Shown here: in pieces, positions 35,131 to 48,086 of the stretch
Numbering within the stretch: position 1 is the stretch's first letter
Layout of the letters: each line of letters begins with the position of its first letter
Source: Mesorhizobium sp. C432A
GTDB lineage: Bacteria; Pseudomonadota; Alphaproteobacteria; Rhizobiales; Rhizobiaceae
Reading direction: 5' to 3'
DNA: 64,000 bases
Assembly (NCBI RefSeq): GCF_030323145.1
Contig: NZ_CP100470.1
Span: 2,149,001 to 2,213,000, forward strand
Program-made: the position numbers and the translations under genes
Notes under the pieces: model-generated
What the model was told of the DNA's origin: nothing
What the model saw: only the letters and a program-made list of their open reading frames with translations
Databases searched by the model: none

Positions 35131-35964
35131 ATGGCCAGCCCCAAGTCCAAAAATCTTTCCCTATCCAAAAGTGAACTGCCGCCCGGGCGGCGCGACGGCT
35201 CGAATGCCAAGCCGCGACCGCGGCCGGCGCGGCTCCGTTCGCTCTACAGCGCCGCCGAGGTGCATGAGATCTTCCGGCGGTTTTCGGTGCAGCGGCCCGA
35301 GCCGAAGGGCGAGCTCGAGCACGTCAACGCCTTCACGCTGCTGGTGGCCGTGGTGCTGTCGGCGCAGGCGACCGATGCCGGCGTCAACAAGGCAACGCGG
35401 GCGTTGTTCAAGGTCGCCGACACACCTGAAAAGATGCTGGCGCTGGGCGGAGCCAGGGTCGGCGAGTACATCCGCACCATCGGACTCTGGCGCAACAAGG
35501 CCAAGAATGTCGTGGCGCTCTCGGAGGCGCTGATACGCGATTACGGCGGCGAGGTGCCCAGCGAGCGCGATGAGTTGGTCAAGCTGCCGGGGGTCGGGCG
35601 CAAGACCGCCAATGTCGTGCTCAACATGGCATTCGGCCAGCACACGATGGCGGTCGACACCCATATTTTCCGCATCGGCAACCGCCTCGGCCTGGCGCCA
35701 GGCAAGACCCCGGAGCAGGTCGAGGAAGGGCTGCTGCGGATCATTCCGGATGAGTATATGCGCCATGCGCATCACTGGCTGATCCTGCATGGCCGCTATG
35801 TCTGCAAGGCGCGCAAACCCGATTGCCCGGCCTGCGTCATTGCCGATCTCTGCAAGGCCGAGGTGAAGACGACCGATGTGCCGGCGCCGCTGGTGGAAAT
35901 CGCGGCGCCCGGCGTCCCGACAACTAGCTTTCCTCCACGAACACCTCTTCGCGCTTCTTCTTGA
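35131..35964 (+). CDS. nth: Endonuclease III (DNA glycosylase/AP lyase)
   Basis: Removes oxidised pyrimidines and nicks abasic DNA. The helix-hairpin-helix LPGVGRKTANVVL carries catalytic Lys158, and the catalytic aspartate is D176 in VDTHIFRIGNRL. Cysteines 225, 232, 235 and 241 bind the 4Fe-4S cluster. The protein is 277 aa with a 35-residue basic N-terminal tail, usual in rhizobia. The ATG at 35131 follows TAGGAGGGAT. The C-terminus runs about 33 residues past the cluster and its codons overlap the convergent tctA gene by 41 bp. Confidence 0.95.
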   Translation: MASPKSKNLSLSKSELPPGRRDGSNAKPRPRPARLRSLYSAAEVHEIFRRFSVQRPEPKGELEHVNAFTLLVAVVLSAQATDAGVNKATRALFKVADTPEKMLALGGARVGEYIRTIGLWRNKAKNVVALSEALIRDYGGEVPSERDELVKLPGVGRKTANVVLNMAFGQHTMAVDTHIFRIGNRLGLAPGKTPEQVEEGLLRIIPDEYMRHAHHWLILHGRYVCKARKPDCPACVIADLCKAEVKTTDVPAPLVEIAAPGVPTTSFPPRTPLRASS

Positions 35965-37432
35965 CCGACGGCAGGAAGACGACGACGAGCACGGCCAGTG
36001 CGACGAGCAGCAGGCCGGCGCTGATCGGCCGCGTCACGAAGGTCGAAGGGTCGCCGCGCGACAGGATCATGGCGCGGCGCAGGTTTTCCTCGAGCAGCGG
36101 GCCGAGCACGAAGCCGAGCAGCAGGGGGGCGGGTTCGCAGCGCAGCTTGGTCAGGATGTAGCCGAGCAGGCCGAAGAATGCCACCGCGTAGAGATCGAAG
36201 GCGTTGGTGTTGACGCTGTAAACGCCGATCGAGCAGAACGCCATGATGATCGGGAAGAGCACATAATAGGGGATCGTCAGCAGCTTCACCCACAGCCCGA
36301 TCAGCGGCAGGTTCAGCACGATCAGCATCAGATTGCCGATCCACATCGAGGCGATGATGCCCCAGAACAGCGCCGGCTGCTCGATCGCGACATTGGGGCC
36401 GGGCACGATGCCCTGGATGATCATGGCGCCGATCATCAGCGCCATGACCGGATTGGCCGGAATGCCCAGCGTCAGCATCGGAATGAAGGAGGTCTGGGCG
36501 CCGGCATTGTTGGCCGATTCCGGTCCGGCGACGCCGGCAATGGCGCCCTTGCCGAACTCCTCCGGGTGTTTCGACACGCGCTTTTCGACCGTGTAGGAGG
36601 CAAAGGCCGCAAGCACCGCGCCGCCGCCGGGCAGGATGCCGAGCGCCGAACCGATGATCGTGCCGCGCACGATGGGCGCGGCCATCGCCTTGAAGTCGTC
36701 GCGGGTCGGCATCAGGCCGGAGACCTTTTTGATCATCACCGAGCGCTCGTGCTCGTTTTCGAGATTGCGCAGGATCTCGGCAACGCCGAAGACGCCGACC
36801 GCCACCGCGACGAAGTTCAGCCCGTCGGCATATTCGCGGATGCCGAGCGTGAAGCGCGGCGTGCCGGTGTAGATGTCGGTGCCGACAATGCCGAGCAGCA
36901 GGCCGAGCACGACCATCGCCAGCGCCTTGACGATCGAGCCGTGGGCGAGCGCGATGGACGAGACGAGGCCGACGATCATCAGCGAAAAATATTCGGCCGC
37001 GCCGAATTGCAGGGCTATTGCCGTCAGCGGCGGGGCAAAGACGGCGACGAGAAAGGTCGACACCGTGCCGGCGAAGAACGAGCCGATCGCGGCGATCGCC
37101 AGAGCCGCCCCGGCGCGACCGTTCCTGGCCATCTGGTAGCCGTCGATGGCGGTCACGGCCGAGGAGGATTCGCCGGGCATGTTGATGAGAATGGCGGTGG
37201 TCGAACCGCCATACTGGGCGCCGTAGTAGATGCCGGCCAGCATGATGAGGGACGAGACCGGGTCGCCGATCTGGAAGGTGATCGGCAGCAGCATGGCGAT
37301 GGTTGCGGTGGCGCCGATGCCGGGCAGGACGCCGATCAGCGTGCCGAGCAGAACGCCGATGAGGCAAAAACCCAGATTGGCCGGCGTGGTGGCCGTCGAA
37401 AAGCCGAGTTCGAGGTTCCTGAGGAGGTCCAT
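35924..37432 (-). CDS. TctA-family large permease of a tripartite tricarboxylate transporter (cassette 1)
   Basis: Large membrane subunit of a TTT secondary transporter, 502 aa with about 12 hydrophobic segments. Family motifs: GVLLGTLIGVLPGIGATATIAMLLPIT near residue 25, IYYGAQYGGSTTAILINMPGESSSAVTAIDGYQMA near residue 68-100, GPESANNAGAQTSFIPMLTLGIPANPVMALMIG near residue 305-335. It couples uptake to the proton or sodium gradient with the TctC-type binding protein encoded 0.6 kb upstream. The order is tctC-tctB-tctA on the minus strand. Substrate not predictable from sequence. Confidence 0.92.
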   Translation of the reverse strand: MDLLRNLELGFSTATTPANLGFCLIGVLLGTLIGVLPGIGATATIAMLLPITFQIGDPVSSLIMLAGIYYGAQYGGSTTAILINMPGESSSAVTAIDGYQMARNGRAGAALAIAAIGSFFAGTVSTFLVAVFAPPLTAIALQFGAAEYFSLMIVGLVSSIALAHGSIVKALAMVVLGLLLGIVGTDIYTGTPRFTLGIREYADGLNFVAVAVGVFGVAEILRNLENEHERSVMIKKVSGLMPTRDDFKAMAAPIVRGTIIGSALGILPGGGAVLAAFASYTVEKRVSKHPEEFGKGAIAGVAGPESANNAGAQTSFIPMLTLGIPANPVMALMIGAMIIQGIVPGPNVAIEQPALFWGIIASMWIGNLMLIVLNLPLIGLWVKLLTIPYYVLFPIIMAFCSIGVYSVNTNAFDLYAVAFFGLLGYILTKLRCEPAPLLLGFVLGPLLEENLRRAMILSRGDPSTFVTRPISAGLLLVALAVLVVVFLPSVKKKREEVFVEES

Positions 37433-38009: not shown

Positions 38010-38987
38010 TCAGTCGGCGTATTGGCCGGCGGCTTCGATGATCGGCTTCCAACGCGTGATCTCGCCTTCCAGCTTGGCCTTCAGCGCTGCCGGCGTCGCG
38101 TCGGACTCGGACGACGGCTTGGTGCCCAGTTCGGCAAAGCGGGCGATGACGTTGGGGTCCTTCAGCGCGACCTGGAGCGATTTCGACAGTCGGCCGGTGA
38201 TCTCGGCCGGCGTGCCCTTCGGCGCATAGAGGCCGTGCCAGATGCTGACCTGCACCGCGGGCAGGCCGGCTTCGATGGTCGTCGGCACGTCCTTCAGCAC
38301 GTCGAGGCGTTCCGGCGTGGTGACGGCATAGGCCTTGATCGTGCCGCCCTGGATCTGCTTGGTGGTGTTGGTGGTCTGGTCGCACATAATGTCGACTTGG
38401 CCGCCGAGAAGGTCGGTCATGGCCGGGCCGGTGCCCTTGTAGGGTACGGTGACCAGCGGCGTGCCGATGGCGCTCATGAATAGCATGCCGCACAGATGCG
38501 AGGCAGCGCCGATGCCGGCATTGGCTACAGTGATGGTGTCCTTGTTGGTCTTGGCGTATTCGACCAGCCCTTTCAGGTCGGCCGGCTCCAGGTCCTTGCG
38601 GGCGACGATCGCCATCGGCACCTCGGTGACGAGGCCGACATACTCGAAGGCGTTCAGCGTGTCATAGGCGAGTTTTCTGTAGAGGGTCGCGCTGGTCGCC
38701 ATGCCGATGTGATGGAGGAGCAGCGTGTAGCCATCCGGGTCGGCGTTGGCGACGCGGCCGGCGCCCAGCGTGCCGCCGGCGCCGCCGACATTTTCGACGA
38801 TGATCTGCTGGCCAAGATCCTTCGACATGGCTTCGGCGACGAGCCGCGTAACCGTGTCGGTCGGACCGCCGGCCGCAAACGGCACGACGACGGTGATGGT
38901 GCGCTCGGGATAGGTCTGTGCGCTGGCGGCGAACGAATAAAGCGAGACGGCCGCGGCGGCGGCCAGGGCGGCTACAATTTTCCTCAT
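38010..38987 (-). CDS. TctC-family periplasmic solute-binding protein (cassette 1), 325 aa
   Basis: Extracytoplasmic receptor of the Bug/TctC family. Signal peptide residues 1-23 with cleavage after ASA. The mature protein starts QTYPERTITVVVPFAAGGPTDTVTRL; the AAGGPTDTVTR loop and the VENVGGAGGTLGAGRVANADPDGYTLL block are family signatures that hold two carboxylate-bridging waters. Binds a di- or tricarboxylate or similar small acid. First gene of cassette 1; no regulator is adjacent, in contrast to cassette 2. Confidence 0.92.
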   Translation of the reverse strand: MRKIVAALAAAAAVSLYSFAASAQTYPERTITVVVPFAAGGPTDTVTRLVAEAMSKDLGQQIIVENVGGAGGTLGAGRVANADPDGYTLLLHHIGMATSATLYRKLAYDTLNAFEYVGLVTEVPMAIVARKDLEPADLKGLVEYAKTNKDTITVANAGIGAASHLCGMLFMSAIGTPLVTVPYKGTGPAMTDLLGGQVDIMCDQTTNTTKQIQGGTIKAYAVTTPERLDVLKDVPTTIEAGLPAVQVSIWHGLYAPKGTPAEITGRLSKSLQVALKDPNVIARFAELGTKPSSESDATPAALKAKLEGEITRWKPIIEAAGQYAD

Positions 38988-40795: not shown

Positions 40796-41896
40796 ATGCG
40801 TGCGATCAATGCGATATTTCTGAAGCTTTTCTGGGCGGGGCTGCTGCTCCTGGCGGCCGTGCAACTGGCGGGCGCCGATGCGACGGTGCCGACCGCCGAC
40901 ATCGAGGGCGGTGCCGACAATCATCTGGCCAAGCGCTACGAGGGGTCGTTCATCGTCTCCTACGAAAAATTCGCCTATACCGATTTTACAGTGCCGCTGT
41001 CGCCGCTGAAGCCGAGCGCCGATCCGGATGCCCGTGACACGATGAACAACCGTGTGTTCGCGCCGGACAAGAAGGCTGAGGTCGAAGGCGCGCTGACCCG
41101 CATCGCCTATGTGCTGCCGGCCGGGCGCTCCCCGCTCGAAGTGCTGCGCAACTACCAGGATGTGATCGCGGCCGCCGGCGGCGAAGTCCTGTTCGAATGC
41201 AAGAAGGAAGAGTGCGGCGGCGCCGCCGACCGGTCGTCGAGCGGTGGCGGCGGCGACATGAGCCTGATGATGTATTTCTTCCATGAAAGCGACGTCAAGG
41301 ACGCGGCCTTTTCCAATGGCGCCTGTGCGGTAACCACCGGTATCAACGACCAGCGCTTCTTCGCTGCCAAGGTGCCGCAGGATGGCGGCGACGCCTATGT
41401 CACTGTTCAGGCCTATTCGCTGATCGACGACCTCTACTGCAAGGAACTCAACGGCCGCACCATCGCCGTCGTTCAGGTGCTGGAGCCCAAGGCGCGCGAC
41501 AAGAAGATGGTGGTGGTCGAAGCGGCCAAGATGGCGGATTCGCTGTCGGCCACCGGCTCCATCTCGCTCTACGGCATCTTCTTCGACACCGACAAGGCCG
41601 ACATCAAGCCGGAATCGGAACCGACGCTGAAGGAGATCTCGACGCTTCTGACCAACGAGCCCGGTATGGCGGTGATCGTCGTCGGTCATACCGACAACCA
41701 GGGCGCCTTCGACTACAATATCGATCTGTCGTCGCGGCGGGCGCAGTCGGTGAAGGCGGCGCTGGTCTCGAAATACGGCATCGATGGCGGCCGGCTGACC
41801 GCCGCCGGCGCCGGCATGATGGCGCCCGTCGCCAGCAATGACGGCGAAACCGGCCGCGCCAAGAACCGCCGTGTGGTGCTGGTCAAGGCGAACTGA
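40796..41896 (+). CDS. OmpA-family protein with N-terminal DUF4892-like region, 366 aa
   Basis: Envelope protein: a signal peptide (residues about 1-28), a unique periplasmic domain (about 30-240) resembling DUF4892, and a C-terminal OmpA peptidoglycan-binding domain (about 255-366). The OmpA domain shows GIFFDTDKADIKPESEPTLKEI, VVGHTDNQGAFDYNIDLSSRRAQSVK and NRRVVLV, with the DAP-binding Asp and Arg intact. There is no N-terminal beta barrel, so it is periplasmic or anchored otherwise. The ATG at 40796 is chosen over TTG at 40781 on the basis of GGGGGAG. Convergent overlap of 14 bp with the IclR gene. Confidence 0.85.
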   Translation: MRAINAIFLKLFWAGLLLLAAVQLAGADATVPTADIEGGADNHLAKRYEGSFIVSYEKFAYTDFTVPLSPLKPSADPDARDTMNNRVFAPDKKAEVEGALTRIAYVLPAGRSPLEVLRNYQDVIAAAGGEVLFECKKEECGGAADRSSSGGGGDMSLMMYFFHESDVKDAAFSNGACAVTTGINDQRFFAAKVPQDGGDAYVTVQAYSLIDDLYCKELNGRTIAVVQVLEPKARDKKMVVVEAAKMADSLSATGSISLYGIFFDTDKADIKPESEPTLKEISTLLTNEPGMAVIVVGHTDNQGAFDYNIDLSSRRAQSVKAALVSKYGIDGGRLTAAGAGMMAPVASNDGETGRAKNRRVVLVKAN

Positions 41897-42656
41897 GGCC
41901 GATCACGGTTTCAGCGCCGGCTAGGCGCGCTGCCTGCTCCAGCATCGAGGCATCCTCGCCGAAGGCGCGGGTGGCGCGAGCGGCGGCCTCCAGCAGGTCC
42001 GGTGTCATGCGGCGCAGGAACGCCGTGTCGACGCGTGTCGACGGGCCGGCGAGCGTCAAGGCGCCGAGCAGAACGCGGCCCGGTCCGAACACCGGCACCG
42101 AGACGCCCGCCGTCTCAGGGTCGCGGTCGCCGATCGACAGATAGTGGCAGGCGTTGCGGATGGTCTCGTATGGTTCGCCCGGCTGGCCTGAAAACGCTGC
42201 CAGCACGCGGCCGCCAGAGCCGGTGAGCAACGGCAGCAGGTCGCCTTCCCGGATCGTGTAGCGGATCGGGTGCTTGGATTCGACGCGGTAGAGACAGGTG
42301 CGGGCGTCGCCCGAGCGGACATAGAACGCCACGCTTTCCCAGCTGCGTTCGGCAAGATCGCGCATGATCGGCAGCAAGATGTCGACCGCCACGACCGAGC
42401 GCTGGTAAAGCGCGCCAAGCCGGAAGGTGGCGGGTCCGATGCGGTAGCGGCCATCGTCGAGCCGCTCCAGCAACTGCCCACGCAGCAATGAGTTCGCTAG
42501 CCTCAAAATGGTGCTTTTGTAGAGCCCGGTGCGCGCCGCGATCTCGGCCAGGCTGAGCGAGCGGTCGGCGGTCGCGAACGCGTCGAGAATGGCGATCGCG
42601 CGGTCGAGCGCGGCAACACCATCGGCCGGCAACGGCTGGGATCGCGCTTCGGTCAT
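41883..42656 (-). CDS. IclR-family transcriptional regulator of TTT cassette 2, 257 aa
   Basis: N-terminal winged HTH (residues about 14-75: ALDRAIAILDAFATADRSLSLAEIAARTGLYKSTILRLANSLLRGQLLER) followed by the IclR effector-binding GAF-like domain (about 90-250). It is divergent from tctC2 and most likely controls the tctCBA-CoA-transferase-lyase operon in response to its substrate or a CoA intermediate. The start is uncertain: the ATG at 42656 gives a normal IclR length, but two further in-frame ATGs at 42728 and 42782 exist; the latter readings would run through the operator palindromes. Confidence 0.88.
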   Translation of the reverse strand: MTEARSQPLPADGVAALDRAIAILDAFATADRSLSLAEIAARTGLYKSTILRLANSLLRGQLLERLDDGRYRIGPATFRLGALYQRSVVAVDILLPIMRDLAERSWESVAFYVRSGDARTCLYRVESKHPIRYTIREGDLLPLLTGSGGRVLAAFSGQPGEPYETIRNACHYLSIGDRDPETAGVSVPVFGPGRVLLGALTLAGPSTRVDTAFLRRMTPDLLEAAARATRAFGEDASMLEQAARLAGAETVIGLSSP

Positions 42657-42729
42657 CTCACGAACAGTTTCATTCCAGTTTACCTGCTCGGACAAAGGCC
42701 GGCCGAAGCGATTGTGCCGCACATCCATG

Positions 42730-42766
42730 GTTCTGTCTAGTAGAACAGCGTTCCTGTTGACAGAAC
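42730..42766. promoter_or_regulatory. Double 17-bp palindrome operator between iclR-type gene and tctC2
   Basis: GTTCTGTCTAGTAGAAC (42730-42746) and GTTCCTGTTGACAGAAC (42750-42766) share the GTTC...GAAC frame and start exactly 20 bp (two helical turns) apart. An outer repeat GTTCTGTC/GACAGAAC spans both. The second overlaps a TTGACA -35-like hexamer at 42757-42762 directed to tctC2. This layout suits IclR proteins, which bind as pairs of dimers. Confidence 0.65.
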
Positions 42767-42786
42767 GTACCGAAATCGGCATGAAT
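42757..42786 (+). promoter_or_regulatory. Putative promoter of the tctC2 operon
   Basis: TTGACA at 42757-42762 and an ATGAAT-like -10 at 42781-42786 with an 18-bp spacer. The -35 is perfect, the -10 weak, and the -35 is covered by the second operator palindrome, which fits repression or activator-assisted start. Confidence 0.45.
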
Positions 42787-42862
42787 TTTTGCCGAGCGGG
42801 TCTGTTTTCAGGCTACGTTTCTGGCAGGCACCGGAGGAGGTGTCGTGATTTGGAGGAATCCC

Positions 42863-43840
42863 ATGCTGAACAGACGCAGATTTTTGATGAGCACCGCGGC
42901 CGCAGGCGCTGCCGGATTCGTTGCAACGCATTTGACGCCCGCCCTCGCTCAGGATGCACCGCAGATCCAGATCTTCGTGCCGGCCGCGCCCGGCGGCGGC
43001 TGGGACCAGACGGGGCGCACCATCGACCAGGTGCTGCGCAGTGAAAAACTGATCTCCGGCTCGCAGATCACCAATGTCGGCGGCGCCGGCGGCACGGTCG
43101 GCCTGCCGCAGTTCATCAGCCAATGGAAGGGCAAGGGCAATTCGCTGATGGTGGCCGGCATGGTCATGGTCGGCGCCATCATCGCCAACAAATCGGCCAA
43201 CAACCTCTCCGAAGTGACGCCCATCGCTCGCCTCACCGGCGAGTTCGAGGCGCTGGTGGTGCCGGCGGATTCGCCGTTCAAGACGGCCGGCGATTTCGTC
43301 GCCGCGCTCAAAGCGGATCCGACCAAGGTTCCGGTGGCCGGCGGCTCGGCCGGTGGCTCCGACCACATCCTGTTCGGGCTGATCGCCAAGACGGTCGGCG
43401 TTCCGGCAACCAACCTCTCCTATGTGCCTTTCGCCGGCGGCGGCGAGGCGCTGTCGGCGCTGCTCGGCAACCAGGTGGCGGCCGGCATTTCCGGCTTCGG
43501 CGAGTTCTCCGAGCAGGTCAAGGCGGGCGCGCTTCGGCTGTTGGCGATCTCCGCCGACAAGCGCCAGGACGGCATCGACGCACCGACGATGAAGGAAGCC
43601 GGCATCGACGTCGAACTGTTCAACTGGCGCGGCGTATTCGCACCGCCAGGCGTCTCCGACGCCGACAAGGCGGCGATGGTCACGATGATCGAGACCATGG
43701 CCAAGAGCGATGCCTGGGCAGCCGAATGCAAGAACCGCAACTGGACCCCCATCCTTCTGACCGGCGACGATTATGCGAAATTCCTCGTCGACGACACCGC
43801 CCGCATCACCGCGATCCTCAAGGATCTCGGCCTCGCCTGA
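42863..43840 (+). CDS. TctC-family solute-binding protein (cassette 2), Tat-type signal, 325 aa
   Basis: Periplasmic Bug/TctC receptor. The N-terminus MLNRRRFLMSTAAAGAAGF has a twin-arginine motif (RRRFLM), unlike the Sec signal of cassette 1, and cleavage is likely after ALA near residue 30. Family blocks: IQIFVPAAPGGGWDQTGRTIDQVLR and TNVGGAGGTVGLPQFI; SYVPFAGGGEALSALLGNQV is near residue 193. GGWDQTGR in place of the GGPTDT loop marks a distinct ligand subclass. The ATG at 42863 follows GGAGG. A hairpin follows the stop. Confidence 0.92.
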   Translation: MLNRRRFLMSTAAAGAAGFVATHLTPALAQDAPQIQIFVPAAPGGGWDQTGRTIDQVLRSEKLISGSQITNVGGAGGTVGLPQFISQWKGKGNSLMVAGMVMVGAIIANKSANNLSEVTPIARLTGEFEALVVPADSPFKTAGDFVAALKADPTKVPVAGGSAGGSDHILFGLIAKTVGVPATNLSYVPFAGGGEALSALLGNQVAAGISGFGEFSEQVKAGALRLLAISADKRQDGIDAPTMKEAGIDVELFNWRGVFAPPGVSDADKAAMVTMIETMAKSDAWAAECKNRNWTPILLTGDDYAKFLVDDTARITAILKDLGLA

Positions 43841-43847
43841 TGTCTTC

Positions 43848-43869
43848 AGGGGCGGCCACGGCCGCCCCT
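43848..43869 (+). promoter_or_regulatory. Hairpin after tctC2
   Basis: AGGGGCGGCC-AC-GGCCGCCCCT, ten perfect pairs, 7 bp after the tctC2 stop and 96 bp before tctB2. As in cassette 1, this probably favours a short abundant message for the binding protein, with partial read-through to the membrane subunits. Confidence 0.65.
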
Positions 43870-43965
43870 TCCGACATTAGCCTGCGAGATGGACATATCA
43901 TGCGCTGGGAGTGAAACTGCGGATGCGGCCGGCGGGAGGATGCCGGCCATCTCGGGAGGACATCG

Positions 43966-44502
43966 ATGAGCACCAGCGACCAGCAGCCGGCGCCCCCGCG
44001 CCTTGCCATGCCCGAATTGTTGATCGGCATCGGGCTTCTCGCCTGTGCCGCGGCCGTGGCGTGGCAGACCCTGGCGATCCCGGTTTCGCCGCTCTATTCC
44101 AAGGTCGGGCCGACCGTCTTCCCCTACATCACCATGACAGGCATGATCGTGCTTTCGCTGCTGCTCATCGTCGCCGCGCTGCGCGGCGGCTGGCAGCCGC
44201 AGGAGGAAAAGGAAACGCCGACCGACTGGAAGGCCATGGGCATCGTCGTTGCCGGCCTGGTCGCCAATCTGGTGCTGATCCAGCCGCTCGGCTTCACCGC
44301 CGCCTCGGTCATCATGTTCGTGCTCGTCTGTTATGGCTTCGGCAGCAAGCACACGCTGCGCGATGCGCTGACCGGCCTGATCCTGGCGCTTGCCGCCTAT
44401 TTCGGCTTTGCCAGGGCGCTCGGCGTCAACATTGGCGCCGGCTTCATCGAAAACCAGCTGAACACGGTGATCGACGCGATCATCGCCACTGCGAGGGGCT
44501 GA
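43966..44502 (+). CDS. TctB-family small permease subunit (cassette 2), 178 aa
   Basis: Four-helix membrane protein of the TTT transporter: helix 1 [22 protein letters not shown], then [32 protein letters not shown] with the family P-x2-FP element, a charged loop and two further helices ending in [12 protein letters not shown]. The last is longer than in cassette 1. It lies 4 bp before tctA2; the ATG follows GGGAGGACATCG. Confidence 0.87.
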
Positions 44503-44506
44503 CGCC

Positions 44507-46030
44507 ATGGAGACGCTCGGCCATCTCGCCCACGGATTTTCCGTCGCTTTCTCGCCGATGAACCTGCTGTGGTGCCTGGTCGGCACCACGCTCGGCACGG
44601 CCATCGGCGTGCTGCCCGGCCTCGGGCCGGCGCTGACCATCGCGCTGCTGCTGCCGATCACCTACCAGGTGGCGCCGGAGGCGTCCTTCATCCTGTTTGC
44701 TGGCATCTATTACGGCGCCATGTATGGCGGCTCGACGACCTCGATCCTGCTCAACACGCCGGGCGAAAGCGCCACCATCGTCACCGCGCTGGAAGGCAAC
44801 AGGATGGCCCGCTCGGGTCGCGGCGGCGCGGCACTGGCGACCTCGGCGATCGGCTCCTTCGTCGCCGGCACCATCGGCACGATGGGCGTCGCCTTCCTGG
44901 CCCCGGTGGTGGTGAAGTTCGCGCTCGCCTTCGGGCCGGCCGAATATTTCTCGCTGATGGTGCTTGCCTTCATCACGGTGTCGGCGGTGCTCGGCTCGTC
45001 CTCCGTGCGCGGCCTCACCAGCCTGTTCATCGGTTTCGTCATCGGCATGATCGGCGTCGACCTGCAGACGGGACAGCCGCGCTTCACCTTCGGCATGAAC
45101 GAACTGCTCGATGGCGTCGATGTCATCATTGCCGCGGTCGGCCTGTTTGCCGTCGGCGAGACGCTCTACATGGCCTCGCGCCGCTATGCCGGCAAGGACG
45201 AGATCGTGCCGCTCAAGGGCTCGCTCTACATGACCGCGGCCGAATGGGGGCGCTCGTGGAAGCCATGGCTGCGCGGCGCTTTCATCGGCTTCCCGATCGG
45301 CGCCATGCCTGCCGGAGGCGCCGAGATCCCGACCTTCCTGTCCTACGCCATCGAAAAGAAGCTGTCGAAGCACAAGGAGGAGTTCGGCACGGTCGGCGCC
45401 ATCGAGGGCGTTGCCGGACCGGAAGCCGCCAACAATGCGTCTGCCGCCGGCGTGCTGGTGCCGATGCTCACCCTTGGCCTGCCGACCTCGGCGACCGCCG
45501 CAATCATGCTGTCGGCCTTCCAGAGCTACGGCATCAATCCGGGACCGCTGCTGTTGACGACGCAGGCCGATCTGGTCTGGGGCCTGATCGCCAGCCTGTT
45601 CATCGCCAACGTCATCCTGGTCGTTCTCAACCTGCCGCTGATCGGGCTGTGGGTACGGCTGTTGAAAATCCCGGCGCCGCAGCTCTATGCCGGCATCCTG
45701 GTGTTCGCCACCGTCGGCACCTACGGCATCTCGCAATCGCCGATCGACCTCGTCATCCTCTATCTCCTGGGGGCCGCCGGCTTCCTGATGCGGCGCTTCG
45801 ATTTCCCGACCGCGCCGGTCATCATCGGCATGATCCTGGGGCCGCTTGCCGAAACGCAGTTCCGCCGGGCGATGACGATCTCGAACGGCGACTGGTCGGT
45901 GTTCTACACCCACAAGCTGTCGCTGGTGCTGCTGATCCTTGCCTTCATCGGGCTCGCCGGTCCGCATATCTGGGCCTTCATCGAGCATCGGCGCCGGCGC
46001 GGACCCGAGCATGTGCCGGGCGATGCCTGA
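44507..46030 (+). CDS. TctA-family large permease subunit (cassette 2), 507 aa
   Basis: Main membrane subunit of the second TTT system. Family motifs: [73 protein letters not shown] near the N-terminus and [44 protein letters not shown] near residue 305-348. About twelve hydrophobic segments. It is roughly as similar to cassette-1 TctA as family members in general, so this is not a recent duplicate. 15 bp separate it from the CoA-transferase gene, arguing for one operon and a shared substrate. Confidence 0.93.
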
Positions 46031-46045
46031 GCGACCTGGAGCATC

Positions 46046-47223
46046 ATGACCGATCTGCTTGCCGGCATCCGCATTCTCGACCTGACCAATGTGCTGGCGG
46101 GCCCTTATTGTGCCTACCAGCTGGCGCTGCTCGGCGCCGATGTCATCAAGGTCGAGACGCCGCAAGGCGGCGATCTGGCGCGCCAGCTCGGCGCCTCGCC
46201 GGCGCTCAACGAGGCGGGGATGGGCGCGTCGTTCCTGGCGCAGAATGCCGGCAAGCGATCGGTGGTGCTGGATCTCAAAAGCGAAGCCGACCGCGAACGC
46301 TTCCTCGATCTCGTCGCCTCCGCCGATGCGCTGGTCGAGAACTTTCGACCGGGCGTGATGGGGCGGCTGGGGCTTGGCTATGAGGCGCTGAAAGCGGTTC
46401 GTCCGGGTCTCGTCTATTGCGCCATATCGGGGTTCGGCCAGACCGGGCCGATGCGCGACAATCCGGCCTACGACCAGATCATCCAGGGGCTGTCCGGCAT
46501 CATGAGCATCACCGGCACGCCGGAGACCGCACCCTTGCGGGTCGGCTATCCCGTCGCCGACACGCTGGGCGGGCTGGTCGGGGCCTTCGCCATCGCCGCG
46601 GCGCTGGTCAAGCAGAAGACCTCGGGCGAGGGCGCGTTTCTCGATGTCTCGATGCTCGAATGCACGCTGTCGGCGCTGGGCTGGCCGGTGTCCAACTATC
46701 TGACCGCCGGCGTCGAGCCGCAGCCGATGGGCAATGAGAACATGACGGCTGCGCCCTCCGGCGCGTTTCGCACCGGCGACGGCCTGCTCAACATCGCCGC
46801 CAACAAGCAGGAGCAGTTCGTCACGCTTTGCCGGCTGATCGGCCAGCCGGAACTGGCCGACGATCCGCGCTTTGCCGAGCGCGAGACGCGCAAGCAGAAC
46901 CGCGCTGTGCTGAAGGTGCTGATCGAGACGGCCTTGGCGAGCGCCTCGGCCGCAGCCTGGGAGGAAAAATTCAACCGCGCCGGCGTGCCGGCGGGCCGGG
47001 TGCTGACGATCCCCAAGTGCTTGGCGAGCGCCAGGTGGTCGAGCGCGACATGACCACGCGTTTCCAGGGTCTGCCCGGCATGGCGCAGCCGCTGACCGTG
47101 GTGCGCGGCGGCTTCATGGTCGATGGCGCGGCACCCTTGCCGGTCCTGCCGCCGCCTGTGCTGGGCGAGCATATGGACGAGGTTTTTTCCACCCTGCCGC
47201 CGCGCGCCAGGAGAAGCGCGTGA
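46046..47223 (+). pseudogene. CaiB/BaiF-family CoA-transferase, frameshifted near the 3' end
   Basis: Class III CoA-transferase that moves CoA between acids via aspartyl-CoA. N-terminal LDLTNVLAGPYCAYQLALLGADVIKVE, catalytic Asp172 in GYPVADTLGG, and FLDVSMLECTLSALGWPVSNYL are intact. The open frame stops at 47053 (335 aa), but the expected C-terminus (VVERDMTTRFQGLPG ... LPPPVLGEH) continues in another frame to 47223. The region is 1178 bp (392 codons plus 2), so one base is missing close to 47017 (AAGTGCTT where AAGGTGCTT would restore the frame). The stop of the continued frame overlaps the lyase GTG by 4 bp, as expected for an intact coupled pair. Deletion or sequencing error; activity doubtful. 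Confidence 0.85.
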
Positions 47224-48086
47224 GCGAGAGAAAAACCGGCCGCGAACGCGGCGAGGAATGGTGGCAGACCGGCATCATCGAGATGAGCCCCGGCATTATC
47301 CGGCTGCGCGGCTATGAAATCCAGGAGCTGATCGGCCGCGTCAGCTTTCCGGCCACGATCTGGCTGATGCTGCGCGGCGAATTGCCGAGCGAGGAGCAGG
47401 CGGCGCTGCTCGGCATTGCGCTGGGGGCGGCCGTCGACCACGGGCCGCAGGCGCCGTCGATCGCCATTGCCCGCATGGCCATCACCTGCGGCGTCGGCAT
47501 CAACAGCGCCATGGCGTCCGCCGTCAACGTGCTGGGTGACGTGCATGGCGGCGCCGGCGAACAGGCGCTGTCCTTCTATGGCGACATTGCCGTGGCACTT
47601 GACCAGGGTGTTGCGCTGGACCAAGCCGTAGCCGCACGGCTCGACCGTTTCTTCGCCGAGGAGAAAGGCTATGTGCCGGGATTTGGCCATCGCTTCCACC
47701 CGGTCGATCCGCGCGCGCCGCGCCTGATCGCAGTGACGCGCGAGTTTGCCGCGCGCGGCGTCGTCAGCGGACGCTTTGCCGACATCGCCGAGGCCGTCGA
47801 ATCAGAGGTGGCACGGCGCAAGGGGAAGAAAATACCGCTCAACATCGACGGCGCCACCGCCGTCATCTATGGCGAGCTCGGCTTTCCGCCGCCGTTGACG
47901 CGCGGCCTGTTCGTGCTCTCGCGCTCGGTCGGCATCCTGGCGCATGCATGGGAACAGTCGCAGCAAAGCGAGCGCAACAAAGGGCCGCTGCCGCGCGAAT
48001 GGCTGTGGGCCTATACGGGCACGCCGCTGCGGCCATTTCCCGCTGAGGGGGATGAGGGTCCCGCTGAAGGGGACGAGGGCAAGTGA
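47220..48086 (+). CDS. Citryl-CoA lyase-like protein with citrate-synthase fold, 288 aa
   Basis: Short citrate-synthase-superfamily protein. The family start RLRGYEIQELIGRVSFPATIWLMLRGELPSEEQ is clear. The catalytic triad is kept: His109 in GDVHGGAGEQ, His157 in FGHRFHPVDPR and Asp210 in LNIDGATAVIYGELG. It is about 100 residues shorter than citrate synthase, matching proteins annotated as citryl-CoA lyase, which cleave a 3-hydroxy-3-carboxy acyl-CoA. Start is GTG at 47220 overlapping the CoA-transferase stop. The C-terminus ends in a duplicated PAEGDEG. Neighbours suggest that the imported acid is made a CoA thioester, then cleaved to acetyl-CoA and an oxoacid. Confidence 0.83.
   Translation: MSERKTGRERGEEWWQTGIIEMSPGIIRLRGYEIQELIGRVSFPATIWLMLRGELPSEEQAALLGIALGAAVDHGPQAPSIAIARMAITCGVGINSAMASAVNVLGDVHGGAGEQALSFYGDIAVALDQGVALDQAVAARLDRFFAEEKGYVPGFGHRFHPVDPRAPRLIAVTREFAARGVVSGRFADIAEAVESEVARRKGKKIPLNIDGATAVIYGELGFPPPLTRGLFVLSRSVGILAHAWEQSQQSERNKGPLPREWLWAYTGTPLRPFPAEGDEGPAEGDEGK

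Follow-up and report, generated by a model that had tools for sequence, protein, structure and literature searches.

Here we describe an operon in Mesorhizobium sp. C432A that probably encodes an inducible pathway for the breakdown of a 2-hydroxy-2-carboxy acid. The operon lies in a 64,000-nucleotide stretch of the genome, hereafter the window (contig NZ_CP100470.1, positions 2,149,001 to 2,213,000), and the host genome is a single contig of 6.02 Mb. It combines a divergent IclR-family regulator, a tripartite tricarboxylate transporter (TTT), a class III CoA-transferase (CaiB) and a protein of the citryl-CoA lyase type (CCL). The observed basis is the genes, the predicted fold, conserved residues, adjacency and co-occurrence across genomes. 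The chemistry that we infer, together with the donor, direction, induction and substrate, is as follows. The TTT transporter would import an external acid of the form R-C(OH)(COO-)-CH2-COO- (step 1). With succinyl-CoA, acetyl-CoA or a similar donor, CaiB would transfer CoA to the CH2-COO- carboxyl (step 2). CCL would then cleave the thioester by a retro-Claisen reaction, forming acetyl-CoA and the 2-oxo acid R-CO-COO- (step 3). Were acetyl-CoA the donor, CaiB and CCL would be equivalent to a citrate lyase whose two activities reside in separate, free enzymes. An earlier interpretation of this DNA, the sequence-only reading, had proposed the same logic of import, CoA transfer and cleavage. As a prediction from anatomy and comparison it is well supported by gene content, CaiB–CCL adjacency and co-occurrence.

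The operon is real, and all six genes stand where the sequence-only reading had put them. The regulator gene (41883..42782, minus strand; Pfam HTH_IclR 55.7 bits, IclR_C 41.6 bits) is divergent, 62 bp from the first transporter gene. All further genes are on the plus strand. TctC (42845..43840; TctC 104.8 bits) has TTT binding proteins such as Bug27 and BugD as its relatives in the PDB (best 86.9 bits). It is followed by the small membrane subunit TctB (43966..44502; TctB 75.6 bits) and the large membrane subunit TctA (44507..46030; TctA 510.9 bits), so that all three parts of a TTT system are present by Pfam. The operon had been called tightly spaced. This holds for TctB–TctA (4 bp) and TctA–CaiB (15 bp) but not for TctC–TctB, because a gap of 125 bp separates them. 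A second TTT set lies elsewhere in the window on the minus strand (35924-37432 and 38010-38987); one gene is 48% identical to the operon TctA, and one open reading frame is TctC-like as judged by eye.

The last gene, CCL (47220..48086), encodes 288 residues and scores 431.1 bits against a curated citryl-CoA lyase cut-off of 261 (NF004864 / Ccl). Its only Pfam match is Citrate_synt, the C-terminal fold of citrate synthase, and the fusion with a succinyl-CoA-synthetase-like part that marks ATP-citrate lyase is not seen. Structural ranking of the predicted model, which is weak at residues 261-288, puts citryl-CoA lyases above citrate synthases, and the closest structures are lyases. VIA-align re-scored the 791 best chains from Foldseek, a second look at the same search. 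An ordinary citrate synthase was ruled out on this ranking and because only the C-terminal domain matches. Active-site positions were mapped by alignment with the genome's own citrate synthase and with 6hxp, and we presume that they play the roles known from the citrate-synthase site. H74, H109, H157, R165, D210 and R235 are invariant in every row that covers them. His109, His157 and Asp210, which the sequence-only reading had listed as kept, are indeed conserved in 139, 139 and 137 covering rows, respectively; among the 139 rows, the 23 of L097-L119 duplicate places that L120-L142 also represent. As aligned, CCL keeps the citrate-synthase histidines, the aspartate and two arginines.

The preceding gene encodes a class III CoA-transferase, as indicated by a CoA_transf_3 match of 375.2 bits and a predicted catalytic aspartate. 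This residue, Asp172 in the numbering of intact relatives, is invariant in 15/15 aligned CaiB sequences, and we take it to be catalytic by analogy with Frc. The frame is broken in this genome, as had been hinted before. The first 335 residues are encoded at 46046..47053. Near 47013 the gene differs in length by one base from four intact relatives (L005-L008), and the C-terminal part runs on in another frame to 47223 (47014..47223, start approximate), where its translation matches the C-terminus of those relatives. Because of this break, CaiB is probably truncated in this strain, unless the base difference is a sequencing error.

We then turn to the gene neighbourhood of CCL in other genomes. 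Loci were taken from the best 80 of 156 CCL homologue loci, which lean to close relatives and among which the closest to the window are mostly Mesorhizobium. A search of the phylum contributed all 23 CCL matches outside the window's own genome. Plasmids matched in 246 records, and 12 of the 60 listed were examined, hand-picked for annotation and diversity, three of them lacking gene annotation. Counts exclude L001-L004, the repeats L097-L119, and L143. CaiB lies within 2 kb of CCL in 101 of the 115 loci, the outcome of a survey that the sequence-only reading had called for. In the Mesorhizobium group (n = 60), CaiB is this close and on the same strand in 60/60, and TctA and TctC, counted separately, are each found within 7.5 kb in 59. 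Such numbers show that the arrangement is not due to chance. IclR lies within 8 kb in 54/60 of these loci. The other 55 loci, three of them from further genus members (two with a broken CCL) and some of them near-copies, contain CaiB in 41, TctA in 13, TctC in 21, IclR in 22 and LysR in 14. Adjacency of CaiB and CCL extends over Alpha-, Beta- and Gammaproteobacteria and one Streptomyces, and the transporter type varies (TTT, TctC alone, DASS, ABC of two kinds, TRAP). Cupriavidus metallidurans CH34 (L094) carries both CCL and CaiB, although its genome paper describes the route of citryl-CoA synthetase plus lyase as not encoded. Squalene/hopene genes near the Cupriavidus CCL and NagA/NagB-like genes beside L136 were set aside as unrelated neighbours.

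Fourteen loci lack CaiB within 2 kb. Three of them have it farther off, at 2.7 kb (L066, L067) or 7.4 kb (L090). Four have an acylating-aldehyde-dehydrogenase-like gene 2.3-5.8 kb from CCL (L127, L132, L138 and, on the opposite strand, L079). L133 has a QuiC-like gene and no acylating-aldehyde-dehydrogenase-like gene in range. The remaining six (L075, L093, L136, L137, L139, L142) have neither CaiB nor an acylating dehydrogenase in range; distant CaiB genes occur in L075 (44%, other strand, about 7 kb) and L139 (37%, about 8 kb), and L093 has an annotated CoA-transferase fragment. CCL is accompanied by one of two kinds of class III transferase, which are 29-30% alike, or, in four loci, by the acylating-dehydrogenase-like gene. 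The need common to CCL loci would therefore be an acyl-CoA.

The pairing also holds at the level of whole genomes. In a sample of 398 genomes of the phylum (E <= 1e-60 for CCL, E <= 1e-90 for CaiB), CCL is found in 24, two with a broken copy. CaiB gave 26 matches, 21 at an identity of at least 55% and five at 42-44%, a split drawn after the list was seen. The 21 close CaiB and 24 CCL genomes share 19, where 1.27 are expected (Fisher p 7e-26). With all 26 CaiB genomes the 19 shared compare with 1.57 expected (p 2e-22), both tests ignoring kinship among genomes. Outside one family (f1), 16 genomes are shared of 17 and 20. The two match ends lie 18-185 bases apart in 15 of the 19 shared genomes. 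In the other four (G226, G319, G339, G208), the two genes sit on separate contigs or are separated by 212 kb, and in G226, G339 and G208 the unlinked CaiB follows its own TctCBA set. Among six examined genomes that lack an adjacent CaiB, these four carry CaiB at 63-72% elsewhere, and G083 and G099 have none above 38% to the Ruegeria CaiB. Adjacency and co-occurrence together bear out the earlier claim that transferase and lyase belong together. On this comparative evidence, the CaiB–CCL pair behaves as a conserved functional unit.

A second feed into CCL may exist. In L127, L132, L138 and L079, CCL stands beside QuiC-like, acylating-sulfoacetaldehyde-dehydrogenase-like and thiamine diphosphate (ThDP) enzyme genes, the last of the acetolactate synthase group. 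These matches fall below their cut-offs (453 bits against 1200 for QuiC in L127, 411 against 600, and 413 against 538, respectively), and the L127 shikimate dehydrogenase passes (377 of 235). In Azoarcus (L086), QuiC-like halves, a ThDP enzyme and shikimate dehydrogenase are found alongside CaiB and CCL. Since the four QuiC-type loci have no adjacent CaiB, and G083 and G099 none above 38%, the thioester for CCL is probably supplied either by a transferase or from an aldehyde. The ThDP enzyme could decarboxylate 4-carboxy-4-hydroxy-2-oxoadipate to citrate semialdehyde, whose conversion to a thioester would give citryl-CoA. In a 60-row CCL tree the acylating-dehydrogenase loci do not group together (4 changes over 4 rows, not below the number in shuffles). 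A single origin is thus not shown by this tree, which is no test of how often they arose. It is a rather doubtful idea, though one worth stating, that stand-alone CCL is a catabolic hub, fed with citryl-CoA or an analogue from imported acids by CaiB, or from a quinate-linked 2-oxo acid by the ThDP decarboxylase and acylating dehydrogenase. If true, the quinate-linked branch would complete the breakdown of quinate in a way not reported so far, via citrate semialdehyde.

Several observations qualify, or weigh against, an operon for import, CoA transfer and cleavage. We know of no activity for these proteins. The transporter is outside the conserved core, because TctA is near CCL in only 13/55 loci beyond the Mesorhizobium group. 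G280 and G331 contain a close CaiB and five more genomes one at 42-44%, in each case with no close CCL, and CCL occurs without close CaiB in G083, G091, G099, G238 and G274. Transferase and lyase could thus serve separate pathways and be neighbours only. G331 (L148) keeps a TctCBA-CaiB set 79-87% like the window's with no CCL (best CCL-like match 33%), and the QuiC-type clusters use CCL with no adjacent CaiB; but 19 genomes hold both genes, four of them unlinked, and the adjacency crosses three proteobacterial classes and reaches one Streptomyces, which makes separate pathways unlikely. The direction could also be synthetic, with a small citrate-synthase-like CCL joining acetyl-CoA and a 2-oxo acid and CaiB removing the product from its thioester. 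The fold family is that of citrate synthase, and in principle neither class III transferases nor such lyases are bound to one direction. The import-family transporter, the IclR regulator, the absent citrate-synthase N-terminal part and the lyases as nearest structures make this very unlikely. Finally, the broken transferase frame may leave the operon non-functional in this genome, and there is not far from an even chance that it is a decaying remnant in this strain. Among the 76 genus members matched (E <= 1e-30), CCL is broken or fragmentary in three (G071, L141; G274, L142; G432), and the match is absent from 43 of the 119 genus genomes, by loss or because it was never gained. The remaining five genes, however, have open frames, and the one-base difference may be a sequencing error.

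For the proposed catabolic operon, the leading single candidate substrate, held tentatively, is citrate (R = CH2COO-), which would give acetyl-CoA and oxaloacetate. Citrate is favoured by the CCL family, the TTT and DASS transporters in the loci, a sensor kinase next to the TTT system of L121, a TctD-like regulator and sensor kinase beside TctCBA-CaiB in L145, a TcuA-like oxidoreductase in both L087 and L091, an aconitase-family gene in the latter, and an RraA-like protein in L072 whose nearest PDB relative is 4-carboxy-4-hydroxy-2-oxoadipate aldolase. Most of these tricarboxylate-type neighbour matches, however, fall under curated cut-offs. The TctD-like match reaches 184 of 337 in a locus without CCL, the TcuA-like matches (358 and 350) are just under 369, and the RraA-like protein reaches 125 of 179 as that aldolase, whereas the one model that it passes (254 of 231) bears the name hypothetical protein. 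The partner-subunit arginine that binds the third carboxylate in citrate synthases aligns with a glycine in CCL. Citrate also enters the tricarboxylic acid (TCA) cycle directly. A bacterium with this cycle should need no such citrate route, which favours another acid. We place most of the remaining probability on citramalate, malate and itatartarate, which would yield pyruvate, glyoxylate and hydroxypyruvate, respectively; that the substrate is such an acid and not citrate we consider a substantial possibility, if somewhat short of even. An Amidohydro_2-type, lactonase-like gene adjoins CCL in L073, L074, L081, L082 and L085, with a DASS transporter and LysR, and lies 4 kb upstream in L070; SMP-30-type genes occur in L066, L067, L088 and L093 (Pfam was run on the L085 and L066 copies). 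Dehydrogenases resembling glyoxylate/hydroxypyruvate reductases are found in L072, L075, L076 and L083, a GhrA-like one in L093, and 4-hydroxybutyrate-dehydrogenase-like and succinate-semialdehyde-dehydrogenase-like genes in L139. Such neighbours would suit itatartarate from fungal hydroxyparaconate, possibly reached by lactonase opening. The available part of De Witt et al. (PMC9875883) shows lactone opening in Pseudomonas and only speculates on the later fate of itatartarate. But these neighbours are confined to certain lineages and the window operon has none of them, no dehydrogenase or lactonase match passes a curated NCBIfam cut-off, and among the loci named here L093 alone combines a lactonase-like with a reductase-like gene. 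The enzyme also scores as a citryl-CoA lyase, and Lys254, one residue before the glycine and invariant in 135/135 covering rows, could still hold a third carboxylate. 3-Hydroxy-3-methylglutaryl-CoA was dropped by reasoning, because its cleavage gives no 2-oxo acid of the kind handled by the fold.

The pathway would give a function to widespread proteins of soil and marine bacteria that are named citryl-CoA lyase, a name derived from an autotrophic cycle, and would assign one chemistry to a group of TTT transporters. As the transferase–lyase pair is small and assays on it are likely to be simple, the question of its substrate can be tested directly.

Neither the parts nor the logic is new in kind. 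A catabolic unit that pairs a class III transferase with a lyase of the citrate-synthase fold was not found described in the open-access literature searched, mainly titles and the starts of abstracts, where a mention in body text is possible. Read as it stands, the operon does contrast with citrate lyase, with the citryl-CoA synthetase of Hydrogenobacter and with the itaconate route, as the sequence-only reading had said. The synthetase system is alike in its stand-alone citrate-synthase-fold lyase (Ccl), which is of similar length and the best structural match. There a synthetase makes the thioester, whereas here a class III CoA-transferase, with transporter and regulator, probably takes its place. 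Citrate lyase (CitDEF) works by thioester exchange followed by cleavage. The window operon would be alike in this, but its lyase is of another fold, and Pfam finds no acyl carrier protein or CitE/CitF-type domain in the seven translated operon pieces, which is the extent of this search. In the itaconate pathway, the lyase is of the CitE type. That pathway (ict-ich-ccl), as described in the available parts of two papers (PMC12290011, PMC9875883), likewise combines a CoA-transferase with a lyase whose products are acetyl-CoA and a 2-oxo acid. The window operon differs in its citrate-synthase-fold lyase and in lacking an itaconyl-CoA hydratase, with no hydratase domain among the operon pieces by Pfam. 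Chloroflexus uses a succinyl-CoA:citramalate CoA-transferase and a citramalyl-CoA lyase in carbon fixation. This system is alike in coupling a class III transferase to a lyase acting on a 2-hydroxy dicarboxylate, and it differs from the window operon in its carbon-fixation setting and in the family of its lyase.

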